Below are positions 3,057 to 46,428 of a stretch of DNA of 64,000 nucleotides, one piece after another (the first letter of the stretch is position 1; the number at the start of each line of letters is the position of its first letter). The stretch lies in the NCBI GenBank assembly GCA_027364875.1, contig DAHXON010000008.1, forward strand, positions 1-64,000, given 5' to 3'. The translations under genes and the position numbers were made by a program. Source of the DNA: Chloroflexota bacterium (GTDB lineage Bacteria; Chloroflexota; Limnocylindria; Limnocylindrales; CSP1-4). The notes below the pieces were generated by a model that did not search any database, was not told where the DNA came from, and worked only from the letters and a program-made list of their open reading frames with translations.

Positions 3057-3306
3057 TGGCTTCCCCTTCTGGTGATTCGGCACGCACGCATCATGAGCCG
3101 ACCGGCGGACAGCCGTGCGAATGGCCGCGCGCCGGTTCAGGCAGCCCGGCCCGCTGCGGTCATCCATCGATATCGAAAAGGTGTTGAGGAGGTCCGCGAG
3201 TGGTTCGACGGCGGCGAGCGCGACGACTACTCCTGCCAGCTCCGAGAGCGGCCTTGTATCGTAGGTGCCGGGGGATGCAAGGCCGCCCGACTCAGCAAAG
3301 AGGACC

Positions 3307-3999
3307 ATGACCACAATCGTTGTCACCGGCGCAGCTCGAGGGCTGGGCGCCTGCCTCGCGGAGGAATACCTGAAGCAGGGTGCAACCGTCTTCGGGCTCG
3401 ATCGTGCTGAGCCGAAATCGGATTTGTCCGCATCCTACGGCGGTCGTTTCTGGGGGCTCCGGTGCGACATCACCGATGAGGATCAGGTGCGACGCGCCGC
3501 CGAGGAGGTCGGTCGCGCCGCCGGTTTCGTCGACCTCCTGATCAACAATGCCGCGATCTACCTCAAGAAGCCGTTCACCGAGGCGAACGAGTTCGACGCG
3601 GACATGGCACGCCGGACGTTCGACGTCAACGCCGTTGGACCGCTCCTCGTTACCAAGCACTTCCTGCCGCTCGTGCTCGCCGGATCGGGCAAGAAGATCA
3701 TCAACATCTCATCGGAGGCAGGGAGCATCTCGCAATGCTGGCGATCGCGCGAGTACGCCTACTGCATGTCCAAGGCGGCCCTGAACATGCAGTCGGTGAT
3801 CCTTCAGCACCGGGTCAAGGACGACGGCGTGAAGGTGCTGGCCATTCATCCGGGCTGGATGCGAACCGAGATGGGCGGTGCCGATGCGGACCTCGATCCG
3901 AGCGAATCGGCGAGCGGCATCGTCGAGACGATTGCCCGCAACTCCGCCATCGACGGCCCGATGTATCTGGATTACACCGGCAAGGCCTGGGAGTGGTGA
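3307..3999 (+). CDS. SDR family NAD(P)-dependent oxidoreductase
   Basis: TGAARGLG Rossmann motif, NNAA, YCMSKAALN catalytic YxxxK. Confidence 0.9.
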   Translation: MTTIVVTGAARGLGACLAEEYLKQGATVFGLDRAEPKSDLSASYGGRFWGLRCDITDEDQVRRAAEEVGRAAGFVDLLINNAAIYLKKPFTEANEFDADMARRTFDVNAVGPLLVTKHFLPLVLAGSGKKIINISSEAGSISQCWRSREYAYCMSKAALNMQSVILQHRVKDDGVKVLAIHPGWMRTEMGGADADLDPSESASGIVETIARNSAIDGPMYLDYTGKAWEW

Positions 4000-5475: not shown

Positions 5476-9305
<3,830 letters not shown>

Positions 9306-9350
9306 CAGCCGCCGCGGGACGAGATCGCCAGCTGCTTCGTCAATCTGGTC

Positions 9351-9926
9351 ATGATGGAGTTGTTGACCGACGAGAGAGGGGCTCCACAGTTGCTCGAGCG
9401 AGTAGGGGCCGGCCGCGAGGAAAGGGACGACCTCGAGGACACCTTCGAGGCCATCTACCGGCGGCGCTATCGCGACGTGTTCCGATATGCGCTGCTCATG
9501 CTGCGCCATGAGGCGGAGGCCGAAGACGCGACGGCGGAGGCTTTCGACCGCGCGTATTCGGCCTGGCGCTCGGGGCATGGGCCGTCGGGCCAGGCGCTGC
9601 CCTGGCTCCTGCTGATCACCCGACGGATCGTCATCGACAAGATGAGGCGGCGCCGACTGTTTGCCTGGCTGCCGATGGGCGCGCTCCGGCCGGCCGACGA
9701 GCCGGCCTCCGCCGGCGACACGGACCGATCCGATTTCTGGCTCTGGTTCAACTCCTTCGCCCGCGACCTTCCGCCACGCCAGCGCGAGGTGCTGATCCTG
9801 CGCTACCAGCGGGACCTGGACGACCAATCGATCGGCGAGATCCTGGGGCTCTCGGCTTCGGGGGTTCGCTCGCTGGTGGCGCGGGCCTGCGAGGCGCTGC
9901 GCGGCAATCCGGAGATCTGGCGATGA
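9351..9926 (+). CDS. ECF-type RNA polymerase sigma factor
   Basis: AEDATAEAFDRAY region 2, LPPRQREVLILRYQRDLDDQSIGEILGLSASGVRSLVARA region 4. Confidence 0.9.
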   Translation: MMELLTDERGAPQLLERVGAGREERDDLEDTFEAIYRRRYRDVFRYALLMLRHEAEAEDATAEAFDRAYSAWRSGHGPSGQALPWLLLITRRIVIDKMRRRRLFAWLPMGALRPADEPASAGDTDRSDFWLWFNSFARDLPPRQREVLILRYQRDLDDQSIGEILGLSASGVRSLVARACEALRGNPEIWR

Positions 9927-11023
9927 AAGAGAACGACTCGATGCCGCGTGGCGGCGTGCCCGAAGCGACTGACGAGGAAATCCTGCGCGGCATCCGGCGG
10001 CGCATGGCCGCGATCGAGACGCTCATACCCATGCCTCCCGTATGGACCCGCGACGAGGGTAGGGCTGCGATGTCGCGGACCAGGGTGCGCACCGGCCTGC
10101 GCCTTGCTGCGGCGCCACTGGTTCTCGTTGCCGCGTTGGTCGTAATCGTCATTGGGGCCGGCCTCGGCGCCAGGACCGCGACACTGGGCGCTTCACCATC
10201 GCCGCGCTATACGACCCTGGTCTACGAATACGTGCTCGATGCGGGGCAGACCGTGACAGCGGCCGATCGCGAAGCCATTGCCACCATCCTGCGATCGAGG
10301 ATCGAAAGCGCGGGAGTCGTGGACTCGGTCGTGACGGCCGAGAACGACAGGGTCCAGGTCAAGGTCCCGGCAGATGCGAACGTCCAGAGCATCGAGTCAT
10401 TGGTCGGCCGGCAAGGCCTTCTCGAGTTCGTCCTGCTGCCCCCGGCGATCTACGGCACGAGTGACTCGCCGGGCTCGAAAGAGATCCCCGCCAACGGCTC
10501 AAAGCTCGACCCGTCGTTGCCGGCGCAGTTCACCAGTCGGGACCTCGATCGGAGCAAGACGGCAGCCAACCCGGGCGTGACCGGAGGCTGGCAGGTCGAC
10601 TTCGCCTTCAACGACAACAAGGCTGCCGAGTTCGCGACCTGGTCCGGTGAACACATCAACGACTACTTCGCGATCGCGCTGGATGGTGTCGTCCAGTCGG
10701 CGCCGTACATCCAGTCGAAGGTCGAGGGAGGGCACGGGATCATTTCCGGGGCCTTCACTGAGGAAGAGGCCAAATCGCTCGCCGCCCTGCTGAAGGCCGG
10801 CAGCCTTCCGTACCCTCTCAGGCTCGTCAGCGTGATGGGGCCGGATGCCTCAGCCCCGGTCGAGACGACGCTCACCCCCGCGGACTCGCCCGCTTCCGTG
10901 CCCTCGTCGGCTTGCTCGATCGTGCCGTCGTCCGGCGCACCTACCGGGCTCGCGTCGCCTTGCGGTGAGGAGCCGCTTCGCTCCGGCTCTGTACCCAGCG
11001 CCGCGGCCACCACGGGCGCGTAG
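9923..11023 (+). CDS. Single-TM protein with extracytoplasmic SecD P1-like domain; putative sigma-factor partner
   Basis: ATGA overlap with sigma gene; one TM (LVLVAALVVIVIGAGLGA); AIALDGVVQSAPYIQSKVEGGHGIISGAFTEEEAKSLAALLKAGSLPYPLRLV resembles SecD P1. Confidence 0.75.
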   Translation: MKENDSMPRGGVPEATDEEILRGIRRRMAAIETLIPMPPVWTRDEGRAAMSRTRVRTGLRLAAAPLVLVAALVVIVIGAGLGARTATLGASPSPRYTTLVYEYVLDAGQTVTAADREAIATILRSRIESAGVVDSVVTAENDRVQVKVPADANVQSIESLVGRQGLLEFVLLPPAIYGTSDSPGSKEIPANGSKLDPSLPAQFTSRDLDRSKTAANPGVTGGWQVDFAFNDNKAAEFATWSGEHINDYFAIALDGVVQSAPYIQSKVEGGHGIISGAFTEEEAKSLAALLKAGSLPYPLRLVSVMGPDASAPVETTLTPADSPASVPSSACSIVPSSGAPTGLASPCGEEPLRSGSVPSAAATTGA

Positions 11024-14084: not shown

Positions 14085-15398
14085 ATGACCGCCCCAAACG
14101 TCACCTTCACCGACGAGCGCCTGGCGAACGGGCTTCGTCTGATCGTCTCCGAGGATCACCTGGCGCCCGTCGTGGCCGTGAACATCTGGTACAACGTCGG
14201 GTCCAAGCACGAAGTCCCCGGCAAGACCGGTTTCGCCCATCTCTTCGAGCACGTGATGTTCCAGGGCTCGCGCCACGTGGGCAAGGCCGAGCACATCGCC
14301 CTCGTCCAGGCCGCCGGTGGAACGGTCAACGGCACGACCTGGCTGGACAGAACCAACTACTTCGAGACGATGCCGAGCCACCAGCTCGAGCTGGCGCTCT
14401 GGCTCGAAGCCGATCGGATGGGCACGCTGCTCGACGCGCTCAGCCAGGAGAACCTGGACAACCAGCGCGACGTGGTCAAGAACGAGAAGCGATCCTCGTA
14501 CGACAACCGGCCCTACGGCGCCTGGTTCCACAAGATCCAGGAGCACGTCTTCCCGGAGAGTCATCCCTACCACCACCCGACGATCGGGTCCATGGACGAC
14601 CTGGACGCGGCCTCGCTGGAGGACGTGAGCGAGTTCTTCCGGACCTACTACGTGCCCAACAACGCGGTTCTTTCCGTGGTGGGCGACGTGGATCCGGCCC
14701 AGGCCCGCCGCTGGGTGGAGCGGCTCTTTGGCGAGATCCCGGCAAGGCCTGTGGTTCCGGGCCCGGACGGCACGGCCCTTGAGCCCACCATCGGCGGCGA
14801 GACGCGCGAAGTCGTAGAGGATCGCGTGCCGCTGCCGAGGCTCTACTTCGGCTTCCGGACGCCTCGCTTCGGCGACGCGCGCTTCGACGCGCTCGAAGTC
14901 GCCTCGCAGATACTCGCCGGCGGGAAGGGCAGCCGGCTGTACCGTCGACTCGTCCGCGAGGAGCGCATCGCCCAGGACGTGGCCTTCTTCACGCTCGGGC
15001 TCAAGGATGGCGGCTCGATCGCCGCGGGGCAGACGACCGTTCGGCCGGGCGTGGACACCGCCGTCCTCGAGACCGCCTACGAGGAGGAGCTCGATCGTCT
15101 GGGCCGTGAGCCCGTGACGGACGACGAGCTGGCCCGCGCCCGCGCGCTCATCGAGACCTACGAGCTCGAGGCGCTCCAGCGGGTCGACGAGCGGGCCGAT
15201 CGGCTGTCGATGTACGCCACGCTGCTCGACGACCCGGGGATGATCAACCGCCAGCTGGGCCGCTACCTGGCCGTGACCGCGGAGGACATCCGAGCCGCGG
15301 CGGCCGATTTCCTCGGGCCCGACAACAGGGCCGTAGTCACCTACGTCCCGGCCGCCCAGGCCGGCGGCGGCTCGCACGACGAGGAGAGCGCGGCATGA
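14085..15398 (+). CDS. M16 family zinc peptidase (insulinase-like)
   Basis: HLFEH (HxxEH) with downstream E; ATG internal to ORF. Confidence 0.9.
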   Translation: MTAPNVTFTDERLANGLRLIVSEDHLAPVVAVNIWYNVGSKHEVPGKTGFAHLFEHVMFQGSRHVGKAEHIALVQAAGGTVNGTTWLDRTNYFETMPSHQLELALWLEADRMGTLLDALSQENLDNQRDVVKNEKRSSYDNRPYGAWFHKIQEHVFPESHPYHHPTIGSMDDLDAASLEDVSEFFRTYYVPNNAVLSVVGDVDPAQARRWVERLFGEIPARPVVPGPDGTALEPTIGGETREVVEDRVPLPRLYFGFRTPRFGDARFDALEVASQILAGGKGSRLYRRLVREERIAQDVAFFTLGLKDGGSIAAGQTTVRPGVDTAVLETAYEEELDRLGREPVTDDELARARALIETYELEALQRVDERADRLSMYATLLDDPGMINRQLGRYLAVTAEDIRAAAADFLGPDNRAVVTYVPAAQAGGGSHDEESAA

Positions 15399-16925
15399 CG
15401 CTCGAGGACGTTCTGTCGGTTCGACCTTCTCCCGGCCAGCCGCGCGACTACAGGTTCCCGGCCTTCGAGCGCATCGTCCTCGATTCCGGCCTCCAGGTTC
15501 TGACGGTCAACCTGCCGGGCCGGCCGCTCGTTTCGGCGAACCTGATCATTCGCCGCGGCGCCGCCGACGAACCGCCGGACATCGGCGGAGTGACGGGCCT
15601 GGCCGCTCGGGCCGCGACCGAGGGCACGGAGCGTTACAAGGGAGTGGAGTTGATCGAGGCCGCCGAACGGCTCGGCGCCACGCTCCACGCCGACGCAAGC
15701 TGGGATTCGTTCATGGCGTCCGTCGACGTGGCCGCTTCCCGGCTGGGCGCGGCGCTCGAGCTGCTCGACGAGCTCGTGGAACGGCCCACGTTCCCGGAAG
15801 CGGACGTCGCCAGGCTCCGCGACGAGCGGCTCAACGACCTGCTCCAGGTCAAGGCCGATCCCCGGCGGAGGGTCGAGCGGGCCTTCACGAGCGTCATCTA
15901 CGCGCCGAACTCGCCGTACTCGCGGCCCGCGGCCGGCGACGAAACCACGGTGCCCGGGCTCGATTCCGACGCGGTCCGCCAGGTCCACCGCATGCTCCTG
16001 GATCCGAGTCAGGCCGCGCTCGTGGTCGGTGGCGACCTCACGGGCCTGGACGTTCCGGCACTGGCGCGGTCCGCGTTCGCCGGACTTGCCGGGAGAGTGG
16101 CGGGCGGCGCGGAGGGATCCGAGCGCGTGGCTCGGCCCGCGCAGGCCGCCCCGGCCGCCTCGACCGCGCCGGCCGTGCCGGCCGCGACCACAGCAGTGGA
16201 TCGGCCGATCGTCCGCTTCTATCACCATCCGGGCGCGGTTCAGACCGAGCTCCGGATAGGCCACGTCGGCGTCGCGCGCAAGGTCCCGGACTTCCACGCG
16301 ATCCAGCTGATGGCCGCCATCCTCGGCGGCTTGTTCAACTCCCGACTCCAGATGAACCTGCGCGAGGAGAAGGGCTATACGTACGGCATCGGGGCCGGGT
16401 TCGAGATGCGGCGGGCAGCGGGTCCGTTCGCCGTGCGCACGGCAGTCCAGACTGCCGCCACGATCCCGAGCATCTCCGAGTCGCTCATCGAGCTGAACCG
16501 GATGCGGGACACGGACGTCACGGACGCCGAATTGCGGGCCGCGCGGGACTACCTCGGGCGTCTTCCCGCTCCGGTTCGAGACGCCCGAGGCGGTCGTTGC
16601 GGCTATCGGAGGTCTGTACAGCCTGGATCTCCCCGACGACGAGCTCGCGCGCTACCGCGAGCGGATCGAGGCCGTGACGGTCGGCGACATCCGCCGGTCT
16701 GCCCGGGAGCGAATTCACACGGACAGGATCGCCATAGTGGCCGTCGGCGATGCCGACGTGCTCGGCAAGGATCTCGAGGCGGCCGGTTTCGGCGAGCTCG
16801 AGATCATCCGCGAGGAGCTGCCGGCGGCGGCAACGGCGGGATCGGCGGGCGGCTCGGGCGAAGTCGGCGACGAGGCGGGCGAGGCTGGCGATGAGTCCGG
16901 CGAGACCGGCGAGGCGGCCGAATGA
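15395..16925 (+). pseudogene. M16 family peptidase (inactive partner), apparently frameshifted near 16555-16560
   Basis: ATGA overlap with upstream M16; frame +2 reads to DYLG, then FPLRFETPEAVVAAIGGLYSLDLPDDELARYRERIEAVT continues in another frame to 16925. Confidence 0.7.
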
Positions 16926-44537: not shown

Positions 44538-45746
44538 CTATGGAGCGGTCCCAGACGCTGCCTCCTGAGACTTGAGGGCCGCAACGAGCATCTGAAGGAA
44601 CTGCACGTCGGACCCTGACGGATGGCCGACGCTGGTTCGGACCAGGATCATCACGTTGTCGACGACCAGGCGCCGGTAATCCCAGCTGCCGAACGACCCG
44701 CCTTCGGTCCAGTCGACCGCTGATGGCTGCACTGCCCCGGCCACCCCTGGCTGGAGGGTCGGCAGGGCACGCGTCAGCGCTTCGGACGAAGGCAGGACAG
44801 CGGCGCCCGCGATGGGCGACGCGTATTGAACGCCGGGCGTCATCGGAGGACACATCATCAGACCGTCCGTGGCGGAGGCTCCGCACCCCCATACATCGGA
44901 CGCCGGGGCGCGAAGCCCGCTTGCGGGACTGGCCGCGCGCGTGGCGGCTATCACGTCCGCCACGGTCAGCGGGTGGGGAGCCGTAGCCGCGTCGCCGGTC
45001 CAGAGAACGTCGTCGACGACGATCATGTCGTCGCAGATCGATCTCTGATGACCGCACTCCGTGGCGCGAGGGTCGTGGATGTGGATGCGCATGATGGCCG
45101 GTCCGGTGGCCAGGTTGCCCTGGTAGAAGCGGAACGTGGTCACTCCGCTCTGAGGTGTGGGCGTCGCGCCGGCGTCGGCGCTCACGTAGTTGAACTGGCA
45201 GCCACCCCGTCGGACCCAGGAGTCAGGAGCGCTGGGGTCCGGACCGGGATCGTTCGGGCAGGAGAAGACGCCGACCGGGACGTTCAGCCAGGCGCCCACG
45301 AGGACCGGTGTCGCGTCCTTCGCGGTCGCGCGCATCGCGAGGGCTCTATCCCAGCGAATGACGGGCTGACCGTCCCAGACCTTCGGAATGCCGTCGTCGT
45401 ACCGCAGCGTCGCGTCGGCGGTGGTCGGCGTCGCGGTCGAGAGGCTGGGCGGCACGGTGGCGGTCGGGAGCACGGTCAGGCTCGCGGCGGCGGATTGAGT
45501 CGCTGAAGGCGACGGTCCGGAAACGGCCGCCTCGCGCGCCTGCGCCAGGACCAGCCCTGCCACCACCGCGGCGATCGCCACGACCCCGCCGAGAGGCGCC
45601 CAGAGGGCGCGACCAGCGTGACGGGGTGGCCGTGACCGCCGCGACTTGATCTCAAACGAGGCCGCGTCCGCACTCGCGAGGCTCAGCTCCTCCATGAAGA
45701 CGATCCGAATTCGACCCTCGAGCTTCGACTCGTCTCGTTCAGTCAT
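44538..45746 (-). CDS. Single-TM protein downstream of ECF sigma factor; putative anti-sigma-like partner
   Basis: 8-nt overlap with sigma gene; about 45 aa N-term then TM LWAPLGGVVAIAAVVAGLVLAQ. Confidence 0.6.
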   Translation of the reverse strand: MTERDESKLEGRIRIVFMEELSLASADAASFEIKSRRSRPPRHAGRALWAPLGGVVAIAAVVAGLVLAQAREAAVSGPSPSATQSAAASLTVLPTATVPPSLSTATPTTADATLRYDDGIPKVWDGQPVIRWDRALAMRATAKDATPVLVGAWLNVPVGVFSCPNDPGPDPSAPDSWVRRGGCQFNYVSADAGATPTPQSGVTTFRFYQGNLATGPAIMRIHIHDPRATECGHQRSICDDMIVVDDVLWTGDAATAPHPLTVADVIAATRAASPASGLRAPASDVWGCGASATDGLMMCPPMTPGVQYASPIAGAAVLPSSEALTRALPTLQPGVAGAVQPSAVDWTEGGSFGSWDYRRLVVDNVMILVRTSVGHPSGSDVQFLQMLVAALKSQEAASGTAP

Positions 45747-46245
45747 CTCCGAGCTCCTCGCGAAGGCGGGCCAATCCTGCCTTCAGGTGTCCCTTCGTGG
45801 TGCTATCGCTGATCCTCATGACCCGGGCGACCTCGCCGACCGGCAGGTCGGCCAGGTAGTGGAGGACGATCGCCGTCCTGGCCCTCGGCGGAAGCTTCGC
45901 CAGGGCAATCCGCAAAGCAAGCGCGTCCGCGCTCGGTCCAGGTCCCGTAAGGATTGCTGGGTCGACGACGCCGAAGTGGATCGCTCGGTTCAACCGGCGA
46001 CGAAGCCGGAACGCCTCGTGGACCTGAATCGTCAGGAGCCACGATCTGGCGGCGGTCCGGTCACGCAGGTCGCAATATCTGCGAGCGGCGATCTCGCACG
46101 TGGTCTGGACGAGGTCGCGAGCGTCCGACTCGTTGCGCATGAGCGCTCGTGCGGATGCCAGGAGCAGTGGGAGATGCTGTTCGAGCGCGACCGCGAGCTC
46201 GACGTCCGCCGAACCGACTTCCGGCCCGCAGGTATCCGTCGGCAT
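45739..46245 (-). CDS. ECF-type RNA polymerase sigma factor
   Basis: MRNESDARDLVQTTCEIAARR; LPPRARTAIVLHYLADLPVGEVARVMRISDSTTKGHLKAGLARLRE. Confidence 0.9.
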   Translation of the reverse strand: MPTDTCGPEVGSADVELAVALEQHLPLLLASARALMRNESDARDLVQTTCEIAARRYCDLRDRTAARSWLLTIQVHEAFRLRRRLNRAIHFGVVDPAILTGPGPSADALALRIALAKLPPRARTAIVLHYLADLPVGEVARVMRISDSTTKGHLKAGLARLREELGDD

Positions 46246-46428
46246 GCCCGCCCTCGTGTGCGATCCAAGTTCTAAGGCCACAACCATACAGAGGCGCTTC
46301 GAGGTCAAAACGGGTGGCTGCGTTGCCCGGGACGTCGATTTTCGTCGGGGCCACATGCCCGTTCCAAGGCAACGGGTTCGCTCGTCTCCATCGTGTCCAT
46401 CAACCAGCGTGGCAACTGGGGAGATCCG

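Follow-up and report, generated by a model that had tools for sequence, protein, structure and literature searches.

An ECF sigma factor gene and the gene that overlaps its end, found in the genome of an uncultured Chloroflexota bacterium, encode a sigma factor and a membrane protein that carries the P1 domain of the export protein SecD on the outside of the membrane. The domain combination is real and conserved, and it is an unusual one among anti-sigma-like membrane regulators that carry swappable sensors. The window, the whole stretch of 64,000 nucleotides that was analysed, contains the pair at positions 9351 to 11023. The ECF sigma factor is probably paired with an anti-sigma-like regulator that is anchored in the membrane and takes interchangeable sensors, here a SecD-derived polypeptide-binding head.

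The sigma factor gene (9351..9926, forward strand) encodes 191 amino acids, with region 2 at residues 35-102 and region 4 at residues 139-184 (Pfam Sigma70_r2, 2.5e-9, and r4, 1.1e-11). Both regions lie in a protein of ~190 residues, as in ECF (group 4) sigma factors, and the NCBIfam model sigma70-ECF (TIGR02937) scores 65.6 bits against a cut-off of 42.9. The top NCBIfam model, SigE-fam_strep (TIGR02983), reaches 88.4 bits, below its curated cut-off of 141.55, and membership in that family is rejected. A sequence-only reading of this DNA had described an ATGA overlap between the sigma gene and the next gene; it is present at 9923..9926 on the forward strand (TGG CGA TGA / ATG AAA), with the coordinates correct.

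The partner gene (9923..11023), on the forward strand like all its parts, encodes a putative membrane-anchored anti-sigma-like regulator of 366 amino acids. Its short cytoplasmic N-terminus (residues 1-60, 9923..10102) contains a conserved helix and a P-x-P-P-x-W motif at residues 16-41, and AlphaFold predicts a helix at residues 17-32 with a pLDDT of ~70-76. A single transmembrane helix follows at residues 61-79 (10103..10159, mean hydropathy 2.84). It is the sole hydrophobic segment of the protein and is preceded by a net charge of +4, placing the positive side inward, in agreement with the short cytoplasmic N-terminus and one transmembrane helix claimed earlier. The SecD P1 domain spans residues 96-305 (10208..10837), and its head subdomain occupies residues 204-296 (10532..10810). 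The protein ends in a Pro/Ser/Ala-rich low-complexity tail (10838..11020) that is predicted to be disordered, with a pLDDT below 50 at residues 310-366.

Sequence, structure prediction and phylogeny all identify the ectodomain as SecD P1. Pfam SecDF_P1_head (PF22599) matches residues 204-296 at 82.3 bits (3e-23), SecD_1st (PF21760) matches residues 120-171 at 27.0 bits, exactly at its cut-off, and the NCBIfam secD model (TIGR01129) matches residues 116-302 only (95.6 bits, 3.3e-27). The isolated SecDF P1 crystal structure, PDB 3aqo, is matched by sequence at 1.5e-16. AlphaFold modeling of the partner, with an alignment of nine window/locus proteins as input, gives a pLDDT of ~90-96 across residues 101-300, and a Foldseek search of the PDB with this model returns SecD and SecDF structures as the only strong matches, led by 3aqo_C (E 6.3e-17, TM-score 0.79 by target length). 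The SecD P1-like ectodomain proposed from sequence is thus borne out by the Pfam, NCBIfam and PDB sequence matches, and the structural comparison that had been suggested as a check gives the same answer.

The partner has the P1 domain that characterizes SecD and resembles the P1 of SecD/SecDF (PDB 3aqo, 3aqp and 5xam) in sequence, in fold, in its head and base subdomains and in its location outside the membrane behind an N-terminal transmembrane helix. In contrast to SecD/SecDF, it has no further transmembrane helices, a different N-terminus and a gene encoded together with a sigma factor. A role as SecD translocase subunit is rejected, since the TIGR01129 score lies below the cut-off of 244.4 bits and no membrane domain is present, as the sequence-only reading had noted; residues 306-366 form the predicted disordered tail. 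The genome's own SecD is encoded by a separate, intact, full-length gene (486 aa, contig C144), and its P1 is 50% identical to that of the partner.

The pair is conserved within the genus, a point on which the earlier interpretation had been made to depend. Of 21 genomes of the genus, 13 have the orthologous sigma gene, 11 of them as an intact copy that scores above 350 bits; the copy in G004 is broken by Ns and that in G005 runs off the end of its contig. Mean column identity is 81% (n = 11). All 12 readable orthologous partners start in an ATGA overlap with the sigma gene. The gene order carB, sigma, partner and convergent MFS is kept, with a longer carB-to-sigma spacing in some genomes; four genomes (G002, G003, G007 and G012) lack the pair, yet have the carB and MFS neighbourhood. 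Among the matches listed in a partner search of 177 genomes of the class, those running from the N-terminus through P1 occur only in this genus, and the other P1 matches start at or after the transmembrane region.

P1 is present in 11 of the 12 orthologous partners, two of which (L043 and L044) have strongly diverged copies under the Pfam cut-off. Several orthologs add further domains to P1: a thioredoxin/DsbA-like domain in four (L035, L036, L039 and L043), and a LysM domain in L040 and, by eye, in L041. The remaining partner, L045, has the same N-terminus and transmembrane helix and a DsbA-like plus a LysM domain instead of P1, so the module can do without P1. In G007, which is without the pair, a DsbA-like gene stands in the carB-to-MFS interval, and in G001 another lies beyond the partner gene, so the added DsbA-like domain may have come from a neighbouring gene.

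A further 29 members of the sigma subfamily, from this genus and from other genera of the same family, score ~140-246 bits, well clear of the remaining ECF sigma factors, which begin at 86 bits. Each of these 29 paralogous sigma genes has a partner with a short N-terminus and one transmembrane helix, and the two genes overlap by ATGA in 26 pairs and by TGATG in three. The paralogous ectodomains are Kelch, PD40/WD40-like, CAP, Big_5 or unknown domains, or a Ser/Pro-rich tail only, and the N-terminus and transmembrane helix are the only part kept across the 12 orthologous and 29 paralogous partners. P1 is one among many interchangeable ectodomains at this position. Because the relatives share the inner part and carry many different outer domains, the family looks like a swappable outside-sensor system. 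The partners consisting only of N-terminus, transmembrane helix and short Ser/Pro-rich tail (those of the paralogous ECFs L148, L151, L155-L158 and L161) may need a further sensor protein. Among the ECF sigma factors at ~75-86 bits, four (L164, L165, L167 and L168) have partners with a zinc-type HxxxCxxC anti-sigma motif, by eye.

Another ECF-like sigma gene in the window, recognized by eye (45739-46356, reverse strand), belongs to a different ECF type and is overlapped by a gene for a single-transmembrane partner (44538-45746, reverse strand). Over 204 aa, the ectodomain of this second partner shares 34% identity (E 9e-22) with that of the partner of L147, a paralog of the P1-linked sigma subfamily, and by this similarity different ECF groups seem to have ectodomains in common. 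Elsewhere in the window, an M16-type peptidase ORF recognized by eye (15395-16894, forward strand) has an apparent frameshift near 16555, after which homology continues in the next frame; this could be an assembly error.

Phylogenetic analysis of 37 P1 domains unites the sigma-linked P1s in one group (support 98/97), which lies inside a clade of the SecDs of this genus (support 100/99); the fork next to that clade is weakly supported. This nesting suggests, as the simplest account, a single capture of P1 from a SecD of the genus. In another genus, the partner gene of a sigma factor from a different ECF group (L194:678-2773, genome G081) overlaps the sigma gene by ATGA and encodes an N-terminus of its own, then an additional ectodomain without assignment and a SecD P1; a partner of the same kind with an 88% identical P1 is found at L192:1-1449 (G086). 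Phylogenetically, the L194 P1 falls within the window-type P1s (99/99, and 95/95 with the L040/L042 pair), which suggests that the domain was transferred between the anti-sigma scaffolds of two ECF groups; its branch is long (1.56), making the exact placement uncertain. In a further case from another genus, L193, a stand-alone gene for a transmembrane helix plus P1 (reverse-strand offsets 3170-3959) lies ~3.6 kb from a full secD (7600-9067) with no sigma gene beside it, and its P1 is 51% identical to that of the same-genome SecD.

The head and base of the captured domain have diverged to different extents. Between the window P1 and the genome's own SecD the head is 49% identical and the base 33%, whereas among the SecDs of the genus the two are equally conserved (0.53 and 0.54). 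SecD binds its substrate with the head (PMC7793623), and this pattern fits a head kept under continued selection and a base released from SecDF contacts, as well as retained ligand binding.

The designation of the partner as anti-sigma-like, made from sequence, stands in part. The short N-terminus and transmembrane helix are uniquely constant and co-vary with the sigma factor, which strengthens it; sigma and N-terminus distances among the paralogs are correlated (Mantel r 0.72, permutation p 0.0002), a result that a fixed module would give and that simple co-inheritance would give too. On the other side, Pfam, NCBIfam and PDB profile searches reveal no convincing known anti-sigma domain in the N-terminus of the window partner. 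The best PDB profile match covers 23 residues of chain SAKeCEref and was judged to be chance, and one paralogous partner has a weak NCBIfam anti-sigma match (NF052375, E 0.0036, below cut-off). Membership in the CU044_5270 family (NF038083) is rejected at 12.1 bits (E 0.13) against a curated cut-off of 100; in each of two sets of partners, of 24 and 10 members, a single one matches this model at E ~0.02, through the N-terminal/transmembrane part. Class I anti-sigma factors have a recognizable anti-sigma domain (ASDI) of more than 50 aa, with HxxxCxxC in many; assignment of the window partner to this class is rejected, as it has no Pfam, NCBIfam or PDB anti-sigma match and no HxxxCxxC in its N-terminus. 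At 60 residues, that N-terminus is also shorter than the class I average of ~101 aa (PMC7406223).

Among class II systems, CnrH/CnrY likewise combines an ECF sigma factor with a short cytoplasmic segment, the presumed binding part in the case of the partner (PMC7406223, PMC4598750). CnrY embraces its sigma factor with two short helices, whereas the partner has one, predicted with moderate confidence, and sensing in the Cnr system is done by a separate protein, CnrX (PMC7406223, PMC4598750). The profile search of PDB chains detects no similarity of the partner N-terminus to CnrY. SigI, the sigma factor of another comparable system, is to our knowledge not classed as ECF. The SigI/RsgI system of Clostridium thermocellum, in which one inner domain bears diverse sensor domains, is the closest working analogue (PMC12203970). 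Both families have multiple paralogous sigma/anti-sigma pairs per lineage, a constant inner domain with a transmembrane helix, and divergent C-terminal sensor domains that resemble other proteins (PMC12203970). Unlike the partner, RsgI has a periplasmic autocleavage domain, and its sensors are mostly carbohydrate-binding (PMC12203970), whereas the partner domain comes from the protein-export machinery. A literature search, with subscription papers mostly outside its reach, found no description of an anti-sigma factor with a SecD or SecDF domain.

A promoter-like element, GGGAC-N17-CGTCAA, lies directly 5' of the sigma start (9316..9343, forward strand; GGGAC at 9316-9320 and CGTCA at 9338-9342). 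The core GGGAC-N17-CGTCA precedes all 13 orthologous sigma genes ~35 nt ahead of the start; it usually reads CGGGACGNAAC...CTGCTTCGTCAAT, and the start codon follows within a few bases. The element holds 1.6 bits of information per column, as against 0.5 in the sequence upstream of it and 0.9 in that downstream. This -35/-10-like arrangement, which we take to be an ECF promoter layout, suggests a promoter role for the element and, with it, probable self-regulation of the operon. The core motif has 11 matches in the own genome against 7 for a reversed-pattern control, and a longer motif, allowing up to two mismatches in 21 genomes, finds the 13 sigma-gene sites and one other (G010:C14), so that no conserved second target is seen. 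Neither search detects a regulon beyond the sigma gene itself, and no promoter-like site was found upstream of secD.

These observations point to the following working model. One translationally coupled operon, probably self-regulated, would make both proteins, and the partner N-terminus would hold the sigma factor at the membrane. Outside, the P1 head would bind a ligand beyond the cytoplasm, most plausibly a secretory polypeptide that is unfolded or in translocation, the kind of ligand bound by SecD P1, or a translocon partner. Binding would alter the partner or expose it to proteolysis, and the freed sigma factor would raise its own operon and a further gene set. Two strong M50 (site-2-type) protease matches in the genome, at 157 and 151 bits, make regulated proteolysis of the partner possible. 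The ectodomains would then be interchangeable sensors on a constant sigma-binding stub. Monitoring of secretion by the partner is a plausible guess. The fuller proposal, that the substrate-binding head of SecDF became a stand-alone sensor of secretory load or misfolding for a dedicated ECF sigma factor and that such ectodomains are passed between the scaffolds of ECF groups, is put forward tentatively and may well not hold.

It is unlikely that the partner is instead a sigma-dependent envelope effector, with P1 as a tethered holdase or translocation helper and the N-terminus as a mere targeting or anchoring stub. The preserved head, the potential of the DsbA-like and LysM ectodomains to act enzymatically or on the wall, and the lack of an anti-sigma family match would all suit such an effector. 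In SecD, however, P1 is moved by a proton-driven membrane motor that is absent here, and the same slot beside the sister sigma factors holds unrelated Kelch, PD40 or CAP domains or a short tail, which suits a sensor better. It is also unlikely that the partner is anti-sigma-like with P1 as a neutral spacer or membrane-proximal fold, sensing being left to the transmembrane helix, the tail or a third protein. The orthologous P1s do diverge fast, with most terminal branches at 0.4-1.7, and the sub-threshold copies in L043 and L044, its absence from L045 and the tail-only paralogous partners point the same way; against this, P1 occurs on partners of two ECF groups and its head is preferentially conserved over its base, both of which speak for a function of the head.

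A chance neighbour, in the form of a truncated secD duplicate that landed behind a sigma gene, is highly improbable. The lone duplicate in L193 demonstrates that such copies exist, but eleven orthologous P1 partners with a constant overlap and a constant N-terminus unlike that of SecD, together with the single grouping of the sigma-linked P1s, already contradict it.

Secretion sensing by the partner is an attractive and testable idea, though an unproven one. The secretion monitors VemP and SecM, known from the literature, work by nascent-chain arrest. Coupling an ectodomain derived from SecD to an ECF sigma factor would, if true, give a transcriptional readout of the export machinery, with P1 working outside the motor. 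The family, at ~40 pairs, is a natural sensor-swap series on one scaffold, and would allow separate tests of anti-sigma signalling, of specificity between sigma and anti-sigma, and of ligand binding by SecD P1.
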